A DNA stretch of 39,713 nucleotides from an uncultured Clostridia bacterium (lineage in GTDB: Bacteria > Bacillota > Clostridia > Christensenellales > UBA1242). The number at the start of each line of letters is the position of its first letter. Position 1 is the first letter of the stretch. This document shows positions 1 through 15,927 of the stretch, piece after piece. The stretch lies in contig CAJOLY010000002.1 of NCBI GenBank assembly GCA_905235485.1, forward strand, positions 1 through 39,713, given 5' to 3'. The notes under the pieces are model-generated. The model saw nothing but the letters and a program-made list of their open reading frames with translations, had not been told where the DNA came from and did not search any database. A program made the position numbers and the translations under genes.

Positions 1-3000
1 CTTTTTGGTTGTGGTGACAAATATAAAAACTTAAAAGTTACTTCAAATTTGGAAGATGGAATTGTTTTGTTTTTTAATGATGCAGAAAATTCAACAAAAA
101 CTTTTGAAATTCGTGTTGATGGAGCTTCTGCAGATATAAGCACCAAAATCAAAAGGCCAAATATGTCTGTTGATGGCATTGTTGATGTAAGTATGGAGCA
201 CGATGAAAATTCTCCTGTTACAACAATAACTCTCACAGCCATAAATTATGGCGAAACAGACCTAATTTTCACAACGGAAGAGGGCGGAAAAACGCTTTCT
301 GTTCACGTATCTTGTGAATATAAAATTGAAGGGCTTGCCTTTAACTCACAATATAAACCATATGCTCTTGTTGGACAAACTGTAAAACTCAATTCTTCAA
401 AATGTTTGGTTTATTCTCCAAGTTCAACAACTCAAAAGGATGTTATCTATTCAATGGTTGGCTCATATTCCGGCGTTTCAGTGCTTGAAGATGGAACAAT
501 AATCACAAGTGAAACTGCACAAACTGGATCATTTAGAGTTAGAGCTACAAGCACTAAAAATTCAAATATTTCAGTTGAATTCTATGTTAATGTTTTGCGT
601 GGTGTTGAAAATATTGATGTTACTTTTCAAAGTCCAACTTCAGAATATCAATTATCAAAGGATGATGCGTTGTTTTTTGCAACGAATATGCTTGAAGAAT
701 CTTACAAAATTTTAAACATAAACTTAACCCCAAATGATTATGATTATACACTTGAATATAGATTTTTGGATGAAACTGGAAATGTGACAAGCACCCAAAA
801 CAATTTGAGCAATATTTCAAGTGAGTTGTTTGAGTGTGATGTTATTGATTTAACTCACATAGGTATCACTGCAAAAAATGCAGGAAATGAATATCTTGAA
901 GTTGTTGCAAAAGCTGAGGGATATGAATATACTTCAAGTCCATATATCTTTAAACTTCACAGTGAAAATATCGCAAAAAGTGTGGCTGTTACTGATTTAG
1001 AAGATAACAATCAATATGATCACTATATAATTTATGATGATTATAACGGCACTGAAGGAAAAGCCATAAAAGTTACTGTTGGTGGCGCTAGCCTTGTTCA
1101 GAACACAAATTTTGTAATTAGACTTGTAAATCCAGATCAGGATGCAAGCAAAATTAAAATTTCTACTGGCAGGCGTGATGAGAATGGTAATTTGATATTT
1201 GCAAATTTATATACTGAAGGTTCAACAAACTTTGATGTTTTTGCAAATAATACGGTTTTATATCTTAAGGCTGATACGAACAACATCACAGGAGACAATG
1301 ACAATGTTGTGCTTGATTTTGTAGCTTTTGGCACGATGGGACTTTTGGGAGAAGAATCAAAAGCACGCATTTCATTCGATTTGAGGAATGGTGTTTCAAA
1401 CATTATACTAAACGATACTTACACAAGTGATGGAAAAACTGTTCTTGTTACAGATAGTCTTGTGCTTGTTCCGGTCAAAGAAATGGTGAACGGAGCTACT
1501 CTTGTTGGTGAAACTCAAATAACCTTAAAAATTAAAGCAAGTGAATACACTGAATCAATCTACACAAACAGCACTTCTTCTGGCTATGTGCTTAAAAATA
1601 ACATTGTTACATATGAAAACTCAATTCGTGATGGAAATGATAGGTATTTTGTGTTCACGCTTTATGGTGTTTCTGAAGGCGTTTATACTCTCACATTTTT
1701 CACTCCAAACGGAAGGGTTTTGGATGTAAAAATAAGAGTTTTTGTCAAACTTAACTCGATCACTGCCACAACAGCATCAGTTGAGCAAAATTCTGATATT
1801 GGAGAAATAAATTATAATACTGAAAACAATCTTCCAACACTCAATGGTGGAAGCATTACCATTAAACTTGGTGGAAATGTTGCTCTAAACTTGAATTCAT
1901 ACTTGGGATCATATTTAAGAGGAGTAAATTTTCAAAATTTAGCCTTTTCATTTGAAGATGATGGAAATCAATCTACAACTGTAAGTAGTATAGTTAGAAT
2001 AGACAATACTAATTGCATGATTGGCTATTCTGAGGGTAAAACAAAAGTCACAGTCAGGGTTTCGACCTGGGACAACTCCGAAAGTGGCACAAACTTGAAA
2101 GAATACACTTTATCATTCAACTTGGAAGTTTATGTTGCAATTCAAAATATAGTTCTTAGTGCAAAAAATGCAAAAAATGAAAGTATCAATCCAAAGAGCG
2201 TAACAATTTACACAAAATCAACACTTAGTGATTTTGTTGAAAATGGCATTTCAAACAAAGAGGAATATGGTGAAGTAACGTTTACCTTAAAAATAAATCC
2301 TGAAAAAACAAAAATTGAAGAAAATGCAATTAAAGTTAATTGGACTGGCAATGATGCAGAATCAATCATTATTTTGAATAAAAATGAGAATTACAATTCA
2401 AAAGCAAACACATATACATTAAAAATTTGTGCAAATAGTCTTTTGGCAGGTAGGTTAACAGGCAATGCAAAGCTAATTATCACAGTATCTCAATATGGCA
2501 GAACTTTAACACAAGAGGCTGATATAACAATAAAAGACGCTGTTAAAGTTTCAACTATATATAACATAACAAAAAATCAAAATAATCTTTCGACCAATTT
2601 GATTGATTATGAAAACGCTCCAAAAAATGTGAAGTATATTAAAAATAATAATCAACAAGTTTCAATAGACTTTGATTATTATGTATATTTCGATTCAAGA
2701 GACATGCAAAACGGTCAAATCACATTTGATTTAAATGCAAAAACCGACCCTACTGATGCATTGAATTCAAAGCTTTCGTATATATATAGGGAATTTGAAT
2801 ACGACAATATAAAATATGAAAATGTTTTGTCAATAAATAATAACAGAGTCATAATTGCCAATTCTGGACTTGCATTTATTGACGTATGTGCAGCTGATAG
2901 TTTTGATGCAGAAGCAAATAAATATATCATAAAAAAGACAGTGCTCGTTAAGGTTGCTGATGGTCTTTCACGAAGCACAGCTCTTGAAATTTCTAGCATA

Positions 3001-6000
3001 AGTGATTTAAACAAAATCAATCAAAATGTTGAAAATCTAGAAAAATTTTATGTTGTAACAAAAAACCTGAATCTTTCTACTCAAAATGCTTTCATTCCAA
3101 TTGGATACATCAATGATAATGTGTATGAATTTAATGGTGTGTTTGATGGTTTGATGAATGACAATTTTGGTGAAAAAGTTTGTGCAACAATTTCAGGAAT
3201 TAAATTTACTCAAAATTATAAATATTTGGGCTTGTTTGCAAAACTTAGTTCAGATGCCCAAGTTGAGAATTTGAATGTTAGTATTTCAAAAATTGATGTT
3301 AACACTCATAGTGATACATATTTTGGTGGAATTGCAGGCGAAAGCACTGGTGAAATTAGATCAGTGACAGTTAACTTTATCAACTCAAATTTTGCTATAA
3401 CCGAAAATAAACTTTTTGTTGGTGGAATTGCTGGCAAAAATAATGGAACAATTTATGATTGTTATACCAAAGGTGAAATTCAAATATCTCAAAATACTGC
3501 AATTGAAACTGAAAACCTTTATGTCGGTGGATTCGTAGGTGAAAATGCAGGAAACATCAATGGTAATACAAATTTCTTTAACGAAGCAGAAGTTATAGAT
3601 TCATACAATGTCGAACTTAGTATCACAGCAAAATGCAACGGTTATCTGGGCGGAATTGCTGGAAAATCTACAGGAACAATTTCAAATGTTTCATTTGGTG
3701 GAAAGCTTGATGGAAACAACAATATTGGTGGCATTGTTGGATACATTGCAGGTGATGCATATCAAACAGTACTTGTAAATGCATTTTCAAGTGGAATAGT
3801 TATTGGAAATAACAATGTTGGCGGACTTGTTGGAAAGTTTGTGGGTGATATATACAACAAATCAACTATAACAAACGTTTCTGTCAATATGTTTGATGAA
3901 GAAAATCCAACAGCACATATTATTGGTCAAAACTTTGTTGGTGGTCTTATTGGCTATGCACAAAACCTTGACTTATATAATGCTTATGCAAGAAGTTATG
4001 TTGACCAGCAAAGAGAAGGTTTTGAAGCAGATATGATAGTTTTAGGGAATGATAATTCCTATGCTGGTGGACTTGTTGGATATGCAAAAAACACTAATAT
4101 CCAAAAGGCATATTCAATCCAAAAAGTAAGCAATCCAAACAATGCACAACTTGGTGGGCTTGTTGGATATGGCGATACAATATCACTTACAGACACTTTT
4201 GAACGCAACACTGCAACTTTAACAAAATTGATTGTTGCAAATTCCGAAGGTGCAAACAATGCCGAATGGTTTTATTCATCTAATGATGGTGAGTTTGGTA
4301 TAGAAAATATTTCAAATCCAGATAGATTGATTAAAAATATTACTTTAAGCACAAGTTGGACAGGTTGGTCTTTTACAACAAACAAAAATGAGTTAAGTAA
4401 TAATGTTTGGTACAAAACAAACAATGACACTTATCCATATCTAATATTTGAACAAAATGGAACTGCTAAATTGTTGACTGTTGAAGCTCCAACTTCAATT
4501 GAAATCAGCAAAAAAGAGAATGTTTATTTATATCAGTTAAAAGATGAAAATAATGTTGTGCTTAAAGATTCTTTTGTACTTTATAGAGGTAAAACAAACA
4601 TTATAAGATTTTCAAGTTTATTTGATGTGAATGTTATTCCAAATGATGCACTTTTGAATGTCAGCAAATCTATCACAATAGTTTCAAGCGATTCTGGAAT
4701 TGCACAAATCACAGGAAAAACTGTAAATGACTATCGTTTGAGACTCAATTCAACTGGAAAAGTTACTCTCACAATTTCAAGCAAAATGAATAGTGAAGCA
4801 AAAACAACAATAACGTTATATGTTTTGGATGCAGTTGGCGATTTCGAACTTACATATGAAAATAACGAAAATCTGCTTGTTGGTTCCAATTATGAGCTTA
4901 CTGCGAAAATGAGCACAAGTTATGTTAACAATGACAATTTCTATATTAAATTTACCAACAACAATAATGAGCATTTTGCAATAAACAATGACATTTCAAC
5001 AATAAAATATATAAAAAATAACGAAAAAATCTTTATTTCTGCATCAAAATCGGGGAATTTTTCTATAAATTACAAACTTTTTGTTAAATTAAATATTGAT
5101 GGAAATGAATATGAAGTTCCTCTTGGAAGCGATATCGGCACTGGATTAGACACAACTGAAAAGCATCTTGATTTCTCATTTATATATGGAATCAAAGATT
5201 TTGTTGGCGAAGTAAACAGTGTTGAAACAGGACTCAATGATATAGCAACTCTTGCTTACTTTTTGACAGGCGATGATTTGAGAATTGTTCAAAATGATGA
5301 ATATTATTTACCAACAATAAAGCACAATTTTATAGGTAATCAATATTGGAACTTACAATTTATTTACGCAAATGTATATTTTGGAGAAACAATCAAAAAA
5401 ACAATTTCATGTTCAGAGTTGGACGATCCTGCAGTTCTAACAAAAATTGAGAATTTAACATCTATCAAAGAAATTGATGACCAAATCACAAAAGTTGAAT
5501 TTATTTTTGAGTTGTCAGTTCAAAAAGAAAATGTTAAAAATTATTTTGCTAGTTGTGATGCAAATGAAATAAAGGTTAACAAATTGACAGATGATATAAC
5601 ATTTAAAGCAAGTATTTCAAACAATTCAAATTCAAGCAATGAAAATGCTATCAAAATTGAAACAACAACAATAAATATAAAGAGGCAAAAAGTTGACAAT
5701 GTATCTCTCAATTTTTATACAAATGCAGAGCAAACAAAAAATGGAAATGACACGATTTACACTGTCAACGAAGTACCAAGCACTGCAATTGTTTCAGGTC
5801 AAAAAGGACTTTTGAAAATTGCTCTTTCTCCACTCAATGCAGAAGTCAAGAGTGTTAAAGTAACCTATAAAAACCAAAACGGTTACAATATGAGCATCAA
5901 TCAAATGCTTAAATTTACAGAAAATGATAACAAAATAAGTTATCTTGACCGTTTGCCATATGCAGTTGCAACAGATAATGGTGCAGGAATAATTTTGTAT

Positions 6001-9000
6001 CACAACGAAAGCAATTATATTGAGAATGAAATTCCTTCATATGATGGATATCTGTATGTAAATTGCATAATTTCAAGCAATGTACCAGCTGGTCAAATCT
6101 TCACAGTCACAGTTGAAGCGATTTATAAGGGGGATTATCGTCAAGTTGATTCAACTTATTCAAATGACTATAAATACACAACTTCAATTGATTTGGTTGC
6201 AAGAAAAAAGAGCACTCTTGAAATCGGGTATACATTCCAAAATCAAACATTAAATAACTATGCAGTTATTCCAACAGACATTCAAAAAGAGTTCTATATT
6301 GATTTCACAGAACTTATTGAACCACAAGATTTAAACAATCTTGAAAATATTATTTCACCAAACGCTATTGGCTTGACCTCAGAAAACGCCACAATCGAAC
6401 TTGCAAAAAATGATGATGGATCAGTGAAATACACATATATAAGTTCTAGTGCATCTTATAGAGTTTATTATACAATTAAAACAAGTAATACAGAAGAAAT
6501 TCAACTTCAATCAAAATTTACAAAAACAAAAGATGCAATTCAAACAACATTCCAAAGTGATCCATTCAAATTCCAACCATCAGATTTTGTTGTGACAGGC
6601 ATTTCAATTGTTGATGGAGGAAACAACACCTGGTCAATTCCTCAAACCACACCAAAACAAATAGATTTGCAACTTGAAATTGACACTTCTGACGAGAATT
6701 ATGAACAAACTGAAAACGGTGAAAAAATCTTAAATGACGATATAAAAGCAGAAATTGATGCAATAGTTAATTCAATAAAAACAAATTTCTTATATTGGTT
6801 TGGAAAATCGCAGGGAGAAAATTTATATAAAACTATTGACAATGAAAACACTTATGAAAATTATTTAGTGACAAAATCGAATGAGATTATCACAATTGCA
6901 GTCAAAAATGTTGATCAAAAGGAAATATTGTATTGCGAAATCCCATTAAGTTACAACAATGGAACAGCAGAACTCGCACAAAACACTCAAGATAATTCAA
7001 AAATTGTATCAACAATCATAGGTGATCACACTGTTGGCTTTGACTTTAATGGCGCAATTAAAAATGGAGAAATTCAATATCTTCGTGACGATGTGACGAT
7101 GGATCTTATTAGTGATATATCTTCTGAGCACGCAATTCCAATTTCAAATCAGGCTGATTTTGAAAAAATGAATAGTGGTGACGAACAAGGTATTATGTAT
7201 TATGCTTTGAATGATAATATCACTTTAGAAAATTATCAGCCACGTGATCTTGAATACATCAGTTTTGATGGAAATGGCTACAAGATAACAATCAAAAACT
7301 TTAAACGATCTGAAGATAGTGAAACAGTTGAAAAATATGATTTTGAAAGTTTTGGTTTATTCGATGATATAGATGAAAATTCAATTGTAAAAAATTTAAC
7401 AATAAATTATCAATCATTGACTGATTTGACTCCAAATAAAGAAGACAGCAAACAATATAGCTCAAAGTTAGATACTTCAAATTCAAACATTTCAACTTTT
7501 AGCTTTGGTGGAGTTTGCGTAACAAATAACGGAATTATCTACAACACAAAAGTTGAAGGAAATTTGGAGTTTGTTGGTGACATAACAAAACAGACATATA
7601 TTGCAGGAATTTGTGACACCAACAATGGCTGGATATCATATTCTGAAAGCAATTTGTCATTTACATCAAATTGTGGGTTCACAGCTGGTTTTGTTGCAGT
7701 TAACACAAAAAAGATTTCAAATTCAAAAGTTGTTTTGAATGATAATATTGAAAACACTCTCACAAATTCTGATTTATCTCTAACTGGAGGCTTCGTGGCA
7801 CGAAATTCTGGCGAAATCTTTGGCTGTTATGTTTCTGTTTCATATGATTATGTAAAAACTAGTGATAGTACTTTTGATGAATCAAAAAAATATTATGAAT
7901 TATCTTATGGCTCATATTTAGAAACTAGTGACACAAATTTTGATTCTTCAAAAACATATTACGAAAAAGCAAATGCAACAATTGCAACAATTTCATCTCG
8001 TTCAACAGTTGGTGGATTTGTAAACAAAAATTCAGGCAGAATCAGCAATTCATATTCAAATGTGGATATAGAAAGTGAAACATATGCAAGTGGCTTTGTT
8101 TATGAAAACACGGGCACTATTGAGAGCTCATATTCTTCATCATCAATTCAAACAAGCAGTAGTGTTCACACACCTTTCACAGGCACTGATGAATCTGGAA
8201 ATTACTTGAACTTAGGCACAATTGATGATTGCTACTATATTGGTCAATATCAATCAATTTCAGGTGAACCAGCAACAAAAATTGAAGGAACATCTGATTT
8301 TGCAAAATTTGTGTTTGCAGATAAAGGAAAACTTAATGGAACTTGGAGAATATCTGGCACAAGCAATCCAACACTTGTTGATGCTGATTTGGGAATATTC
8401 TGTCAGCAAGCTTATATTGGAGTTGAAACAGAATTAGATAGTGAAGGCAATAGCATTTCATATCATAATTGGAGATTTGAAGGTGATAATCCAGCTTATG
8501 GAACTCTCAATAACCCTCGAACAATAACAAATATTGATACTGATAATAAAAATTCTAATGAATGGGATTCCATTATTACAAACTATCCTAATGAATATAT
8601 TATTGTTTTGAAAGACTTAACCGCATCAAGAGAAATTACTCCAAAAACAAGTGAACTTGAATTTAGTGGCACACTTCTTGGCAACAATATGCGAATTAGC
8701 AATTTGTATCTTCGTGCAGATTCGACAAACACAAACGAATATTATGGTTTGTTTGCAAAACTATCTGGTGCTACTATAAAGGACATGACACTTGTCGCAA
8801 GACAAGTTATGGCAAATGCAACAAATTGTGTTGGTACTTTTGCTGGATACATAAACAATTCAAATATTATCAACATCTCAGTTGACGGAACAAATATTGA
8901 TGCAGTTCAAGGAAAAAATATGGTTGGTGCCTTTGCAGGACTCATCAACGATTCAATCATAACAAAAATCAATGTTTCTGGAAATGTTAACGCAGGCTAC

Positions 9001-10626
9001 ATTGGTCAAGTGAAAAACTTGAAAAATTATAATAATGACGAAAATAATGATGAAATATATAAATTAACAGACAACGATTATTTAAACGAAGTTAACTATT
9101 CATATTCTGGCACATTTGTTGGGGCTCTTGTTGGTGACACAACTGCAAAACTCATAAATATTACAGGTGAAAACAAAGTTATTGGTTTCTATTCAGGCAG
9201 TGCTGTTGGTTTGGTTGATAAAAATGCAAAACTTATCTTAGCAAGCACAGAAATTGTCTCAGGTCAATATGTAAGGGCATATGCCTTTGCAGGTGGCCTT
9301 GTTGGAGAAAATAGGGGGACAATAGATAGATGCTTTGTTGCTCACAATGTGTCAGTGCAAAAAAATATTGACGAAAACACAAACAATTATAATGTGATAA
9401 GCGGCAGAAATCTCAACTTCTTTGTTGGATCACCTCTATTTGTTGGTGGACTTGTTGGCTTCAATAATGGTGGAACAATAAAAAATAGTTACTCAAAACT
9501 TGATGTTAGAGTTAGTCAATATACAACACTTGCTTCTGGTGGATTTGTTGGACTTGATGTTGACGGAACAATATCAAACTCTTATGCAACGGGAAGTGTT
9601 ACAAATATGTTCATTATTGGTGGATTTATTGGCGTTGAAACAAATAGTGATTTTCTGCTTAATAATCATCAAGAAAAAATAAATGACACAGATGAAACAA
9701 CAAAAATTGTTAGAAATGACAATCACGAAATATTTGACCAAGAAAATGCATATGTCTCAGACAAAAACTCTATTTCTTTAACAAACAATTTAGCATCAAA
9801 CAAATGGATTCTTCCAAGAAACTCTTCTGACATCAATGATGCCGAGCGCTTGTCTCAAGCAGCAACAGGGTTCTTGATAGGAATTGTTGTTGAAAACACA
9901 GAAGCTAAAGATAAAGTAAGCGATATTTATAATCGCTCAGTAAATTTTGCTAATGTCCACAATAATCACTTTAACTCACAAATTTTGAAAGTTTCAACAA
10001 GAACTAACCCTATTATAATAGATTCATTTAGTAGTGCAGATTCAGCAGTGTTACAATCAATAATAAGTATGGATTTGAATGGTAAAGCATTAGTTGCAGA
10101 AGTTAATGCTCATTCAATAGGCGGATACACAAATTCGATTTTGTCCGTTGGCAATAATATTGAAAGAGAAGATTACAAAAATACTAATGATTCGGAATTT
10201 GATTCCAACAAAACTTATTACACGTGGGTAGAAATCACAGACACAACAATATTTGATATAAGTAACGCTTTTGAAAGAAGTGAAACTGATGGAAATTATA
10301 CTTACACCAAAACACCTGACACAACATATAATTCAAATAAAACTTATTACACGTGGGTAGAAATCACAGACACAACAATATTTGATATAAGCAATGCTTA
10401 TGAAAATAAATATGTGGTTGCAAATTGCACAGTTAATGGTGTTCTTGTGAGTTTTGAAAATATTTTGAATAAGGATGAATTATTATTAAATAAAGCTGAT
10501 GGCTTATTTAATAATACAAGTCAAAATAGCAATGCTAATTGGAACAATTCATATTGGAATTTACCTGTTTATAACGATAATTTGTCTCCAATATATCCAA
10601 GCATTATTCAAAATATAAATGTTTAA
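1..10626 (+). CDS. Giant surface lipoprotein with Ig-like regions and GLUG repeats (5' end outside window)
   Basis: The reading frame is open from base 1, and its first visible residues are L-F-G-C-G-D. This is a lipobox whose Cys codon is 10-12, so the signal peptide starts upstream and any start codon near 49 is an artefact. At least 3,538 mature residues follow. The order is Ig-like (Big_2-type) beta domains to about 2960; a lead-in and first GLUG array (repeated G-G-[IFL]-[AV]-G with N-G-T-I) about 3000-4200; more Ig-like sequence about 4480-7100; a second array about 7130-8220; a third about 8500-9650. GLUG repeats are common in cell-surface proteins and adhesins. There is no C-terminal LPXTG or membrane segment, as expected for a lipid-anchored protein. 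It probably acts as an extracellular adhesin or scaffold; the ligand is unknown. A terminator follows, and no same-strand partner is visible downstream. Confidence 0.88.
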   Translation, partial: LFGCGDKYKNLKVTSNLEDGIVLFFNDAENSTKTFEIRVDGASADISTKIKRPNMSVDGIVDVSMEHDENSPVTTITLTAINYGETDLIFTTEEGGKTLSVHVSCEYKIEGLAFNSQYKPYALVGQTVKLNSSKCLVYSPSSTTQKDVIYSMVGSYSGVSVLEDGTIITSETAQTGSFRVRATSTKNSNISVEFYVNVLRGVENIDVTFQSPTSEYQLSKDDALFFATNMLEESYKILNINLTPNDYDYTLEYRFLDETGNVTSTQNNLSNISSELFECDVIDLTHIGITAKNAGNEYLEVVAKAEGYEYTSSPYIFKLHSENIAKSVAVTDLEDNNQYDHYIIYDDYNGTEGKAIKVTVGGASLVQNTNFVIRLVNPDQDASKIKISTGRRDENGNLIFANLYTEGSTNFDVFANNTVLYLKADTNNITGDNDNVVLDFVAFGTMGLLGEESKARISFDLRNGVSNIILNDTYTSDGKTVLVTDSLVLVPVKEMVNGATLVGETQITLKIKASEYTESIYTNSTSSGYVLKNNIVTYENSIRDGNDRYFVFTLYGVSEGVYTLTFFTPNGRVLDVKIRVFVKLNSITATTASVEQNSDIGEINYNTENNLPTLNGGSITIKLGGNVALNLNSYLGSYLRGVNFQNLAFSFEDDGNQSTTVSSIVRIDNTNCMIGYSEGKTKVTVRVSTWDNSESGTNLKEYTLSFNLEVYVAIQNIVLSAKNAKNESINPKSVTIYTKSTLSDFVENGISNKEEYGEVTFTLKINPEKTKIEENAIKVNWTGNDAESIIILNKNENYNSKANTYTLKICANSLLAGRLTGNAKLIITVSQYGRTLTQEADITIKDAVKVSTIYNITKNQNNLSTNLIDYENAPKNVKYIKNNNQQVSIDFDYYVYFDSRDMQNGQITFDLNAKTDPTDALNSKLSYIYREFEYDNIKYENVLSINNNRVIIANSGLAFIDVCAADSFDAEANKYIIKKTVLVKVADGLSRSTALEISSISDLNKINQNVENLEKFYVVTKNLNLSTQNAFIPIGYINDNVYEFNGVFDGLMNDNFGEKVCATISGIKFTQNYKYLGLFAKLSSDAQVENLNVSISKIDVNTHSDTYFGGIAGESTGEIRSVTVNFINSNFAITENKLFVGGIAGKNNGTIYDCYTKGEIQISQNTAIETENLYVGGFVGENAGNINGNTNFFNEAEVIDSYNVELSITAKCNGYLGGIAGKSTGTISNVSFGGKLDGNNNIGGIVGYIAGDAYQTVLVNAFSSGIVIGNNNVGGLVGKFVGDIYNKSTITNVSVNMFDEENPTAHIIGQNFVGGLIGYAQNLDLYNAYARSYVDQQREGFEADMIVLGNDNSYAGGLVGYAKNTNIQKAYSIQKVSNPNNAQLGGLVGYGDTISLTDTFERNTATLTKLIVANSEGANNAEWFYSSNDGEFGIENISNPDRLIKNITLSTSWTGWSFTTNKNELSNNVWYKTNNDTYPYLIFEQNGTAKLLTVEAPTSIEISKKENVYLYQLKDENNVVLKDSFVLYRGKTNIIRFSSLFDVNVIPNDALLNVSKSITIVSSDSGIAQITGKTVNDYRLRLNSTGKVTLTISSKMNSEAKTTITLYVLDAVGDFELTYENNENLLVGSNYELTAKMSTSYVNNDNFYIKFTNNNNEHFAINNDISTIKYIKNNEKIFISASKSGNFSINYKLFVKLNIDGNEYEVPLGSDIGTGLDTTEKHLDFSFIYGIKDFVGEVNSVETGLNDIATLAYFLTGDDLRIVQNDEYYLPTIKHNFIGNQYWNLQFIYANVYFGETIKKTISCSELDDPAVLTKIENLTSIKEIDDQITKVEFIFELSVQKENVKNYFASCDANEIKVNKLTDDITFKASISNNSNSSNENAIKIETTTINIKRQKVDNVSLNFYTNAEQTKNGNDTIYTVNEVPSTAIVSGQKGLLKIALSPLNAEVKSVKVTYKNQNGYNMSINQMLKFTENDNKISYLDRLPYAVATDNGAGIILYHNESNYIENEIPSYDGYLYVNCIISSNVPAGQIFTVTVEAIYKGDYRQVDSTYSNDYKYTTSIDLVARKKSTLEIGYTFQNQTLNNYAVIPTDIQKEFYIDFTELIEPQDLNNLENIISPNAIGLTSENATIELAKNDDGSVKYTYISSSASYRVYYTIKTSNTEEIQLQSKFTKTKDAIQTTFQSDPFKFQPSDFVVTGISIVDGGNNTWSIPQTTPKQIDLQLEIDTSDENYEQTENGEKILNDDIKAEIDAIVNSIKTNFLYWFGKSQGENLYKTIDNENTYENYLVTKSNEIITIAVKNVDQKEILYCEIPLSYNNGTAELAQNTQDNSKIVSTIIGDHTVGFDFNGAIKNGEIQYLRDDVTMDLISDISSEHAIPISNQADFEKMNSGDEQGIMYYALNDNITLENYQPRDLEYISFDGNGYKITIKNFKRSEDSETVEKYDFESFGLFDDIDENSIVKNLTINYQSLTDLTPNKEDSKQYSSKLDTSNSNISTFSFGGVCVTNNGIIYNTKVEGNLEFVGDITKQTYIAGICDTNNGWISYSESNLSFTSNCGFTAGFVAVNTKKISNSKVVLNDNIENTLTNSDLSLTGGFVARNSGEIFGCYVSVSYDYVKTSDSTFDESKKYYELSYGSYLETSDTNFDSSKTYYEKANATIATISSRSTVGGFVNKNSGRISNSYSNVDIESETYASGFVYENTGTIESSYSSSSIQTSSSVHTPFTGTDESGNYLNLGTIDDCYYIGQYQSISGEPATKIEGTSDFAKFVFADKGKLNGTWRISGTSNPTLVDADLGIFCQQAYIGVETELDSEGNSISYHNWRFEGDNPAYGTLNNPRTITNIDTDNKNSNEWDSIITNYPNEYIIVLKDLTASREITPKTSELEFSGTLLGNNMRISNLYLRADSTNTNEYYGLFAKLSGATIKDMTLVARQVMANATNCVGTFAGYINNSNIINISVDGTNIDAVQGKNMVGAFAGLINDSIITKINVSGNVNAGYIGQVKNLKNYNNDENNDEIYKLTDNDYLNEVNYSYSGTFVGALVGDTTAKLINITGENKVIGFYSGSAVGLVDKNAKLILASTEIVSGQYVRAYAFAGGLVGENRGTIDRCFVAHNVSVQKNIDENTNNYNVISGRNLNFFVGSPLFVGGLVGFNNGGTIKNSYSKLDVRVSQYTTLASGGFVGLDVDGTISNSYATGSVTNMFIIGGFIGVETNSDFLLNNHQEKINDTDETTKIVRNDNHEIFDQENAYVSDKNSISLTNNLASNKWILPRNSSDINDAERLSQAATGFLIGIVVENTEAKDKVSDIYNRSVNFANVHNNHFNSQILKVSTRTNPIIIDSFSSADSAVLQSIISMDLNGKALVAEVNAHSIGGYTNSILSVGNNIEREDYKNTNDSEFDSNKTYYTWVEITDTTIFDISNAFERSETDGNYTYTKTPDTTYNSNKTYYTWVEITDTTIFDISNAYENKYVVANCTVNGVLVSFENILNKDELLLNKADGLFNNTSQNSNANWNNSYWNLPVYNDNLSPIYPSIIQNINV
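7858..7971 (+). repeat. Tandem short D-x-x-F-D-x-x-K-x-Y-Y modules inside the giant lipoprotein
   Basis: Two copies of about 66 nt encode T-S-D-S-T-F-D-E-S-K-K-Y-Y-E and T-S-D-T-N-F-D-S-S-K-T-Y-Y-E. They sit between two GLUG repeats (one near 7786, the next near 8008) and interrupt that periodicity, so they look inserted. A related pair lies near the C-terminus. Their function is unknown. Confidence 0.8.
10187..10400 (+). repeat. C-terminal pair of the same module, with an identical 53-nt direct repeat
   Basis: The stretches 10210-10262 and 10339-10391 are identical over 53 nt and lie 129 nt (43 codons) apart. Each encodes K-T-Y-Y-T-W-V-E-I-T-D-T-T-I-F-D-I followed by S-N-A. Exact nucleotide identity inside otherwise divergent coding sequence suggests a recent in-frame duplication. 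The F-D-S-N-K-T-Y-Y core matches the modules at 7858-7971. Confidence 0.85.
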
Positions 10627-13803: not shown

Positions 13804-14078
13804 AAAAAAACTGTGCAATCTTTTTCGAAAACCAAGCCTAGATGACCTAATGTGATTGTTGCTCCACCAAAGCAACCTTATGGCACACAGACGCATCTGC
13901 TTAATGCTGCTTCCTCCCGGACCTGACATAATTCACAGCCATCTGTTGCACAAGACCTTGATTTCATCACAACAGCCACACTCTCTTTCTAAACAAGAAT
14001 TCCCTAGAAAGATCTTCTGCCTTGCTAAAGCGGATTGCAAGTTCAGGGCACCGCTATCTCCCCACATAGCACAGTGTT
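13804..14078 (-). ncRNA. ffs: Signal recognition particle RNA, long Gram-positive type
   Basis: On the minus strand, domain IV reads GTCAGGTCCG-GGAGGAAGCAGC (near 13905-13930), the universally conserved Ffh-binding helix. The 5' part contains GGGGAGATAGCGGTGCCCTG followed by GCAATCCGCT, close to the Alu domain of Bacillus scRNA as I recall it. The ends pair (ACTGTGC near 14075 with GCACAGT near 13810), and the 3' end runs into seven T residues on the minus strand. The length of about 270 nt fits the Firmicutes SRP RNA rather than the short 4.5S form. The tetraloop is GGGA instead of GGAA, still a GNRA loop. End positions are approximate. The RNA joins Ffh to target ribosomes to the membrane. 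Confidence 0.95.
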
Positions 14079-14083
14079 AATAG

Positions 14084-14231: not shown

Positions 14232-14945
14232 ATGAGTAATGCAGAGAGATTTTTAAAAGCATATAATGAAATTGATCATAGCCTCAGAAATCAATACAAT
14301 TTCAAAAGGGCTATGGCTTTTACGGACATAATCAGAAGAAGTGTGCTTATAAATAGTGTTGTTAGAAAATATGAAGATGACCTTGTAGACTATTCAAGAC
14401 TAAGAAACGCAATTGTGCATGGAGGAAACGAAGGTGAAGTAATAGCCGAGCCTCATTTGAATGTGGTTGAAAAACTAGAGCACATAGCAAAATTGATTTG
14501 CACGCCACCAAGGGCAGTTGATAGTATTTGCCGAAAGGATGTTTTGTGCGTTTCTGCAAGTGATAGTGTGAAAAAAGTTGTTGAACTTATCAGCAAAAGT
14601 GGTTACAGCAATTTACCTGTTTACGATGGCGAAAAACTTATTGGAATAGCTAATGGGCAAAGACTTTTGGATGCAATTGGCAGGGCTATGCTCAACAATA
14701 GAAATATTGATAAGTTTGCAAAGGAAATGCTGATTGGTGAAATTGTTTCAAATCAAATAACTGACACTTATTTTGCAATTGCAGACGAAAGCATAACCTT
14801 GGAACAAGCACTTAATTTGTTTTATAAAAATAGAAAAATGCTTGTGATTTTAATTACAAAAAATGGAAGCGACTATGAAAAACCACTTGGTATTATTAGC
14901 GTTGCAGACATTATGGACATAAATAGTGTTTTGGAGAATTACTAA
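14232..14945 (+). CDS. HEPN-like domain fused to a CBS pair
   Basis: A 237-residue soluble protein. Residues 1 to about 85 are helical and contain S-R-L-R-N-A-I-V-H-G. The R-N-x-x-x-H pattern is the R-X4-6-H signature of HEPN domains, which include many RNases and nucleotide-binding proteins. From about residue 95 come two CBS motifs: one with D-S-V-K-K-V-V-E-L-I and L-P-V-Y-D-G-E-K-L-I-G-I, the second ending G-I-I-S-V-A-D-I-M. CBS pairs typically bind adenosine nucleotides such as AMP, ATP or c-di-AMP. A nucleotide-sensing regulator, perhaps controlling an RNase-like domain, is an inference. There is no Shine-Dalgarno and a -10 box lies 6 nt upstream. Its stop overlaps the next start by one base (TAATG). 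Confidence 0.8.
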   Translation: MSNAERFLKAYNEIDHSLRNQYNFKRAMAFTDIIRRSVLINSVVRKYEDDLVDYSRLRNAIVHGGNEGEVIAEPHLNVVEKLEHIAKLICTPPRAVDSICRKDVLCVSASDSVKKVVELISKSGYSNLPVYDGEKLIGIANGQRLLDAIGRAMLNNRNIDKFAKEMLIGEIVSNQITDTYFAIADESITLEQALNLFYKNRKMLVILITKNGSDYEKPLGIISVADIMDINSVLENY

Positions 14946-15625
14946 TGAAAGTTGTGTATGAAGATAATCACTTACTTGTAATAGTGAAGCCACAAAATGT
15001 GCCTAGTCAAAAAGATGACTCGAATGACAAGGATGTTCAAACACTTTGCAAGGAGTATTTGAAGGAAAAGTATAATAAGCCTGGTGAAGCATATTGCGGA
15101 CTTGTGCATAGACTAGATAGACCAACAGGTGGGCTTATGGTTTTTGCAAAAACAAGCAAATGTGCTGAAAGGCTTAGCAAACAAATCAGAGAGGGCGAAA
15201 TGCAAAAAGAATATCTTGCAGTTGTTGTTGGTCACCCAAAATATTCAACAAACTTTTTGGTGAACTATCTCAAAAAAGACGAAAAGACAAACATAGTGAA
15301 AGTTGTTCCAGAACTTGAAACAGGTGCAAAAAGAGCAGAGATGGTGTACAAAGTTTTGGATGAAACTGAAAAGCTAAGTTTGGTGCAGTGTGAACTTATG
15401 ACGGGAAGAAGCCATCAAATAAGGGTTCAAATGGCAACAATAGGGTGCCCTGTGTTTGGTGATGTGAAATACAAAGGTGACATTGCAAAAGGTTGGAATT
15501 TGGCACTTTGGAGTTACAAACTCTCTTTTGAACATCCAATTTCAAAAAAGATAATGAATTTTGTGTGTTATCCGCCCGAAGACGAAATGCCTTGGAAGTA
15601 TTTTAACTTTGCAAGAGTAAAATAA
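14945..15625 (+). CDS. RluA-family rRNA/tRNA pseudouridine synthase
   Basis: Converts specific uridines in structured RNA to pseudouridine. The 226-residue protein is the catalytic domain only; there is no S4 RNA-binding domain. The motif H-R-L-D-R-P-T-G-G-L near residue 55 holds the catalytic Asp, with Gly replacing the common Ser in T-S-G. G-R-S-H-Q-I-R-V-Q and G-C-P-V-F-G-D-V-K-Y are the other family signatures. The start overlaps the preceding stop by one base, with GGAG about 8 bases upstream, so the two genes are translationally coupled. The exact target base cannot be read from the sequence. Confidence 0.92.
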   Translation: MKVVYEDNHLLVIVKPQNVPSQKDDSNDKDVQTLCKEYLKEKYNKPGEAYCGLVHRLDRPTGGLMVFAKTSKCAERLSKQIREGEMQKEYLAVVVGHPKYSTNFLVNYLKKDEKTNIVKVVPELETGAKRAEMVYKVLDETEKLSLVQCELMTGRSHQIRVQMATIGCPVFGDVKYKGDIAKGWNLALWSYKLSFEHPISKKIMNFVCYPPEDEMPWKYFNFARVK

Positions 15626-15634
15626 GAGTCGCTC

Positions 15635-15685
15635 GATAGCTTTTTTCTTGCTCCACGCTTTGCTAGCGCTAACGAAAAAACTATC
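15635..15685 (+). repeat. Hairpin repeat, copy A
   Basis: GATAG-C-TTTTTTC pairs with GAAAAAA-CTATC around a 26-nt core that begins TTGCTCCACGCTTTGCTAGC. Inside the core, CGCT and AGCG can form a small inner stem. Copy B repeats this core with 3 differences in 33 nt; copy C is diverged. It lies downstream of the rluA-like gene and no gene overlaps it. Confidence 0.75.
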
Positions 15686-15733
15686 TCGTAACTGGAAATA
15701 TAAGGATTTTGATGATATGTTGCCCGATAGATA

Positions 15734-15798
15734 TTGCTCATATGATTTTTTCTAGGCTGGTGCTTTGCAAGGCCGTCGAAAAAATATATATATCGCAA
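15734..15798 (+). repeat. Hairpin repeat, diverged copy C
   Basis: The arms are TTGC-TC-ATATGATTTTTTC and GAAAAAATATATATAT-C-GCAA. The core is diverged: it keeps GGTGCTTTGC and GTC before GAAAAAA. The arm sequence differs from copies A and B but is self-complementary. Confidence 0.6.
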
Positions 15799-15816
15799 TT
15801 TGAAAAGAATAAGGAT

Positions 15817-15872
15817 TTGAAATTAAATTCTTTCTTGCTCCACGCTTTGCTGGTGCTGACGAAAAAATTCAA
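15817..15872 (+). repeat. Hairpin repeat, copy B
   Basis: The core is almost identical to copy A; the three changes (A to G, C to T, A to G) turn the inner stem pairs into G-U pairs or leave it unaffected. The arms here are TTGAA...AATTCTTTC and GAAAAAATT-CAA, unlike the GATAG/CTATC arms of copy A. Confidence 0.7.
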
Positions 15873-15896
15873 CTGAATTATAATAATTAATCAAAT

Positions 15897-15927
15897 AAAG
15901 ATAAATCTGCATAGATTTATCTTTTTT
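15897..15927 (+). terminator. Terminator downstream of the rluA-like gene and hairpin repeats
   Basis: AAAGATAAATCT and AGATTTATCTTT form a perfect 12-bp stem with a GCAT loop, then T residues. It ends transcription from 14.2-15.6 kb before the oppositely oriented spmB. Confidence 0.85.

Follow-up and report, generated by a model that had tools for sequence, protein, structure and literature searches.

A genus-restricted family of palindromic repeats placed directly behind stop codons in an uncultured Clostridia bacterium

Introduction

Most of what is known about palindromic repeats near stop codons comes from proteobacteria. What, then, are the hairpins that follow directly on the stop codon of a pseudouridine synthase gene in an uncultured Clostridia bacterium, and why do they stand there? 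The window analysed here is the whole stretch of 39,713 nucleotides (contig CAJOLY010000002.1). A sequence-only reading of its positions 15635–15872 had described three hairpin repeats with a shared core and changing but complementary arms, and had proposed a structured RNA element, a small mobile hairpin inserting at palindromes or a protein-binding array. The family to which these hairpins belong is present in low copy number in a reduced-genome Clostridia lineage; its arms covary, its cores are interchangeable and its placement at stop codons is near-exact. It is therefore well suited to the question of how such repeats come to be placed, be it by the choice of targets, by tolerance or through an influence on the termination of translation.

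Results

Organization of the hairpin array

The window carries two whole hairpin-repeat units and an interrupted one directly 3′ of the stop codon (TAA, 15623–15625) of an RluD-type pseudouridine synthase gene, and convergent genes lie beyond the 15635–15872 stretch. The parts are as follows.

14945–15625 (+): host gene, RluD-type pseudouridine synthase (Pfam PF00849, E 1.4e-35; ORF list)
15626–15695 (+): unit A, intact (fold; covariance model match of 35.4 bits, the model having been trained without A-type units)
15696–15718 (+): A/T-rich tail of unit A, with a AATAAGGATTT-like motif (alignment of units and tails)
15719–15730 (+): 5′ arm of a second A-type unit (GTTGCCCGATAG), split by unit C (composite alignment)
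15731–15802 (+): unit C, intact (fold z-score −2.5; covariance model match of 90.5 bits, unit C having belonged to the training set)
15803–15828 (+): tail of unit C (AAAAGAATAAGGATTTGAAATTAAA region; alignment of units and tails)
15829–15875 (+): 3′ half of the split A-type unit, the copy B of the sequence-only reading (composite alignment)
15894–15927 (no strand assigned): terminator-like hairpin AAAGATAAATCTGCATAGATTTATCTTTTTT, 3′ of the array and between the convergent genes (sequence; predicted stem)

Elsewhere in the window, positions 49–10626 form one open reading frame of 3525 amino acids, presumably encoding a giant surface protein. A bacterial large signal recognition particle RNA (RF01854, 168.6 bits) lies at 13811–14074 on the minus strand; a small plus-strand ORF (13856–14080) overlaps it and is probably no gene.

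A unit consists of a hairpin of about 70 nt and an A/T-rich tail of about 26 nt, often AATAAGGATTT, which is common to most units. The hairpin is built from an outer stem (consensus GTTGC/GCAAC), an internal loop with a constant TC on its 5′ side, a middle stem of one of two types (GTAT/ATAC or GATAG/CTATC), a TTTTTTC/GAAAAAA stem and an apical core. In unit A the outer stem is GTCGC/GTAAC (15628–15632/15688–15692), followed by a TC/TC internal loop, a GATAG/CTATC middle stem (15635–15639/15681–15685), the TTTTTTC/GAAAAAA stem and the core; unit C has ATTGC/GCAAT as its outer stem and ATAT/ATAT as its middle stem, then the same TTTTTTC/GAAAAAA stem and the core TAGGCTGGTGCTTTGCAAGGCCGTC. The two middle stems and two cores of the family occur recombined, with GTAT stems carrying the GCTTCACGCTTCGCTAGCGCTA core at two loci (L025 and L017). 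The fold z-scores of single units range from −1.25 to −4.4.

The sequences and coordinates of the sequence-only reading were correct, and its copies A and C are genuine units. The arms that it gave for these two are real, but they are part of a larger hairpin, the outer 5 bp stem of which it had only partly spotted. Copy B, in contrast, is not a third hairpin with changed arms: its apparent arms (AATTC-TTTC/GAAAAAATT) are accidental and bring together the end of the C tail and the 3′ half of an A unit that was interrupted and has its 5′ half at 15719–15730. The cores of A and B do differ at three positions (CTAGCGCTAAC versus CTGGTGCTGAC), as had been stated, and through two of these changes CGCU/AGCG, the predicted inner stem, becomes CGCU/GGUG, with G–U pairs.

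To delineate the composite, the window was aligned with A units that are uninterrupted and with a contig 6 locus 3′ of an ABC transporter gene. The 5′ arm of the split unit is followed by a whole C unit with its tail (15731–15828) and then by the A 3′ half (15829–15875), in which the CTATCTCGCAAC arm is partly deleted to CAACTG. The same C-in-A composite, with matching junctions, is found behind the ABC transporter gene, with GTAGCTCGATAG and CTATCTCGCTAC as its outer arms. A single insertion of C into the stem of an A unit explains both loci if the composite later moved or was duplicated; copy B is therefore not an independent hairpin. The family forms short tandem and nested arrays, and the C-in-A nesting fits the earlier proposal of a small mobile hairpin inserting at palindromes.

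Copies in the genome and their placement

Copies were counted by DNA and model searches of the window's own genome (981,203 bases in 58 contigs). With 15635–15872 as the query, 12 matches were obtained on seven contigs; with the composite query and the covariance model added, nine loci are solid and a tenth is weak (PlsX, E 0.03), together comprising about 17 units or fragments. A search of the genome with the core had been suggested along with the original observation, and the A and C units indeed recur at the nine solid loci, above chance.

The ten loci agree in position: measured from the end of a same-strand gene's stop codon, the element or array begins no more than 14 bases before this point and no more than 1 base after it (at the TypA locus this range applies to the truncated first copy of the array). 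RluD is the sole host gene named by a tool (Pfam). The others we take, by sequence recognition, to be RpsU, TypA, PcrA, PlsX, a flippase-like gene and a surface-like gene, all of which end in TAA as RluD does, an ABC transporter gene ending in TAG, and Obg and RNase J ending in TGA. The distance to the next long reading frame is mostly well over 100 bases, and the stop-adjoining placement is therefore far from random. The use of three different stop codons makes a simple word of DNA improbable as the target. A clear duplication of the target was not seen: direct repeats of 7–8 bases (AGTGACTC, TGTGGCT) flank only two of the ten loci and could be stubs of a tandem copy.

A REP-like repeat, GTCATTCTGA...GAATCTC, is also present between genes in this genome and in genus-mates (L014 1740–1780, L025 1600–1650, and L066/L067 downstream of a stop), in places beside the hairpin units; these genomes yielded no Y1 transposase.

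Pairing and covariation of the arms

Covariation, which had been named as a further check of the original observation, holds over 15 distinct units, with both the outer and the middle stems covarying. In these units 91.3% of cells are paired, compared with 79.5% in shuffles, and 12 pairs are changed on both sides; this alignment was fitted to the covariance model, which favours pairing, although the outer-stem result is already present in a plain MAFFT alignment. None of 500 shuffles matched the observed value in any of five measures, and slid-partner controls reached at most 59.7% paired and at most four pairs changed on both sides. The outer stem was 96% paired, with compensatory changes in four of its five pairs, and none of 500 shuffles was as good; in the plain MAFFT alignment of ten C-framed units it was 100% paired, four of the five pairs again showing compensatory changes. 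An excess of G–U pairs in the apical part rests on few shared changes. Judged from the aligned units, the conserved feature is the pairing of the arms, with their sequence varying.

Distribution among genus-mates

The genus-mates available for comparison are other species, not strains, and the element is absent from them 3′ of the ABC transporter, rpsU, typA, pcrA and plsX orthologues. In the genus-mate G003 the ABC transporter gene is 95% identical and is followed by unrelated sequence after its stop. Most orthologous sites are thus empty; the RluD site of G003 is filled, by one C unit with arms GTGGC/GCCAC, so that both filled and empty sites exist. The genus-mate G002 has hairpins with a different core (GGCTCGATAG...CTATCTCGCC) 3′ of obg and of the RNase J gene, and in the present genome units follow both of these genes. 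At both G002 loci the frame is GCTCGATAG…CTATCTCGC, the same as that of the window family, and the RNase J locus (L073 1090–1510) holds three tandem units with a period of about 154 bp that are 92–100% alike, framed, as at obg, by GCTCGATAG...CTATCTCG. The sites shared by the two genomes possibly reflect common descent with core replacement, or repeated targeting.

The frame pattern was absent from other genomes among the 197 of the family that were searched, and the covariance model found the family in the genus alone; its matches at C6:5642, G041, G045 and G004:C74 were rejected on inspection as chance matches in or near coding sequence. The C core was found in one of 84,980 species genomes, namely G003, in a set from which the window's own genome is possibly missing.

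A second repeat family also abuts stop codons (L097 1498–1667; L099, L100, L103, L105, L107 and L112; in G001, G002 and G004). In G001 the obg gene is followed by this unrelated repeat of about 150 nt, with the leading hairpin TTTCGTAC...GTGCGAAA; in G002 and G004 copies lie within a few bases 3′ of stops, ruvA, fusA-like and ybaB-like genes being among those concerned. The arms of the leading hairpin vary yet pair, most copies have the open frame SALLSSFLLISAKLGLAQDNLVATQFCNNYLKNM, and the family is limited to the genus. Its existence lends weight to the idea that in this genus the ends of genes are sites where insertions are favoured or tolerated.

Discussion

The demonstrated properties of the hairpin family are its dispersal, its nesting, its filled and empty orthologous sites, its placement by strand and stop codon, and its covariation. 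We consider it probable that they reflect genus-restricted, non-autonomous miniature palindromic repeats that are placed between stop and terminator and serve as 3′-UTR hairpins modestly tuning the upstream gene. The family would spread, or would once have spread, by insertion, non-autonomously, with an element settling between the stop codon and the terminator in the direction of the gene. From that position it would be cotranscribed with the upstream gene as a 3′-UTR hairpin. Being stable, this hairpin could enter the ribosome footprint at the stop codon or block 3′ exonucleases, and the outcome would be a modest modulation of the upstream gene, in the decay of its mRNA or in its translation. 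As for the structured RNA element proposed earlier, the conserved pairing and the same-strand 3′-UTR position speak for it, whereas a function is not supported.

The strict placement could also have other origins. Ordinary intrinsic terminators in the window start about 0–10 bases after stops, so that insertion ahead of a terminator would alone give similar placement. Elements might then insert as single-stranded DNA targeted to the 5′ foot of terminator stem-loops, the stop codon being merely nearby; terminator-like hairpins do lie 3′ of the element at the window, rpsU and L022 loci, and the targets of YPAL repeats span or adjoin dyad symmetry (PMC2229807). We regard such targeting as rather unlikely, since inspection of the obg, pcrA and typA loci revealed no clear terminator after the element and a PF01797 search of G000 (the window's own genome) and four genus-mates found no known recombinase. 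The closeness of terminators to stops, by which any pre-terminator insertion lands at a stop, also weighs against a functional termination-coupled RNA element, i.e. a regulatory hairpin selected exactly at the stops of certain housekeeping genes and not tolerated mobile DNA. The placement at all three stop codons, the covarying arms, the presence of units here at both loci detected in G002 (with another core in the same frame) and the second, unrelated family abutting stops would all suit such an element. However, the hairpin is missing at most genus-mate orthologues and is therefore dispensable, and we find this regulator doubtful. A genus-wide device, in which two unrelated families would attach to gene ends via any stop codon with locus-specific complementary arms, the hairpin forming or melting as the ribosome terminates, seems to us quite improbable.

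The covariation, for its part, could arise without selection if intrastrand template switching during replication copied one arm onto the other and kept the palindrome perfect. Wobble intermediates are few in the outer and middle stems, with three G–U and four A–C cells against 113 Watson–Crick cells, and with G–U about as frequent as A–C a constraint on RNA rather than on a DNA strand is not demonstrated. Moreover, 5′ arms that overlap the stop of the gene (GTAGC, GTGAC) have exactly complementary 3′ arms (GCTAC, GTCAC). The A/T stem is little changed, however, and template switching by itself explains neither the dispersal nor the stop-codon placement; as the source of the covariation it is conceivable, though on the unlikely side. 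It can act alongside the mobile-repeat explanation, with which it is compatible.

Comparison with known systems

Rfam 15 has no family reaching its gathering score in the element, and with E up to 5 there were only low-scoring matches at chance level. Several known identities were also rejected. In the case of an intrinsic terminator, the T run of the unit belongs to the 5′ arm, and no U tract comes directly after the stem, the tail being rich in A. For an integron attC site, the terminal triplets read GTT...AAC, not AAC...GTT, and the hosts are housekeeping genes. For a selenocysteine SECIS element, the host stops are natural protein ends, orthologues ending at about the same place. Regarding a coding role, one frame of unit C is open in several copies (VARMIFSRLVLCKAVEKIYIAT, by eye), is closed in A units and has no Pfam match.

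REP sequences are defined by a GTAG or CGTC tag beside a 5–13 bp stem (PMC3733652), and when one stands under 16 nt from a stop, translation is reduced, according to earlier work cited in PMC12306157. Like REPs and REPINs, the hairpins described here are short palindromes behind genes; unlike them, they are longer and number only about 17 units or fragments. No such tag beside a 5–13 bp stem was found in the units, which start ATGTTGCTCG-like and have a long interrupted stem. Nor was a Y1 (RAYT) transposase (PF01797) detected in G000 and four genus-mates, which are incomplete MAGs (G000 is 96.7% complete), while the positive controls matched. Mobilization by Y1/RAYT was rejected on this search, and the lack of both transposase and tag sets the family outside the REP/RAYT system.

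YPAL repeats (Yersinia palindromic sequences, RU-2) have also been reported close behind stop codons. They are miniature, palindromic and non-autonomous, with filled and empty sites, the dyad-symmetry targets mentioned above and an association with upstream transcripts (PMC2229807), and in Yersinia they measure about 168 bp, with target duplications of 3–26 bp. The present family shares their small size, palindromic structure, lack of autonomy and filled and empty sites, and is set apart by its description, namely about 70 nt plus a tail of about 26 nt and no established duplication. ERIC, a 127 bp intergenic hairpin repeat of enterobacteria and as such unlike the Clostridia family, is cotranscribed with its neighbours, and an effect on mRNA stability has been proposed; for YPAL, too, an effect on upstream mRNA has been proposed (PMC2229807). 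BOX and SPRITE are modular hairpin repeats of a Firmicute, pneumococcus, in which SPRITE is found near the 3′ ends of genes (PMC3049150); their modules are others, whereas the present family swaps cores and arms inside one hairpin frame. A REP-like or YPAL-like effect on upstream mRNA or translation is the most likely, putative function. The repeat family is real and resembles YPAL and REP, yet it is a new family, with an unusually strict placement.
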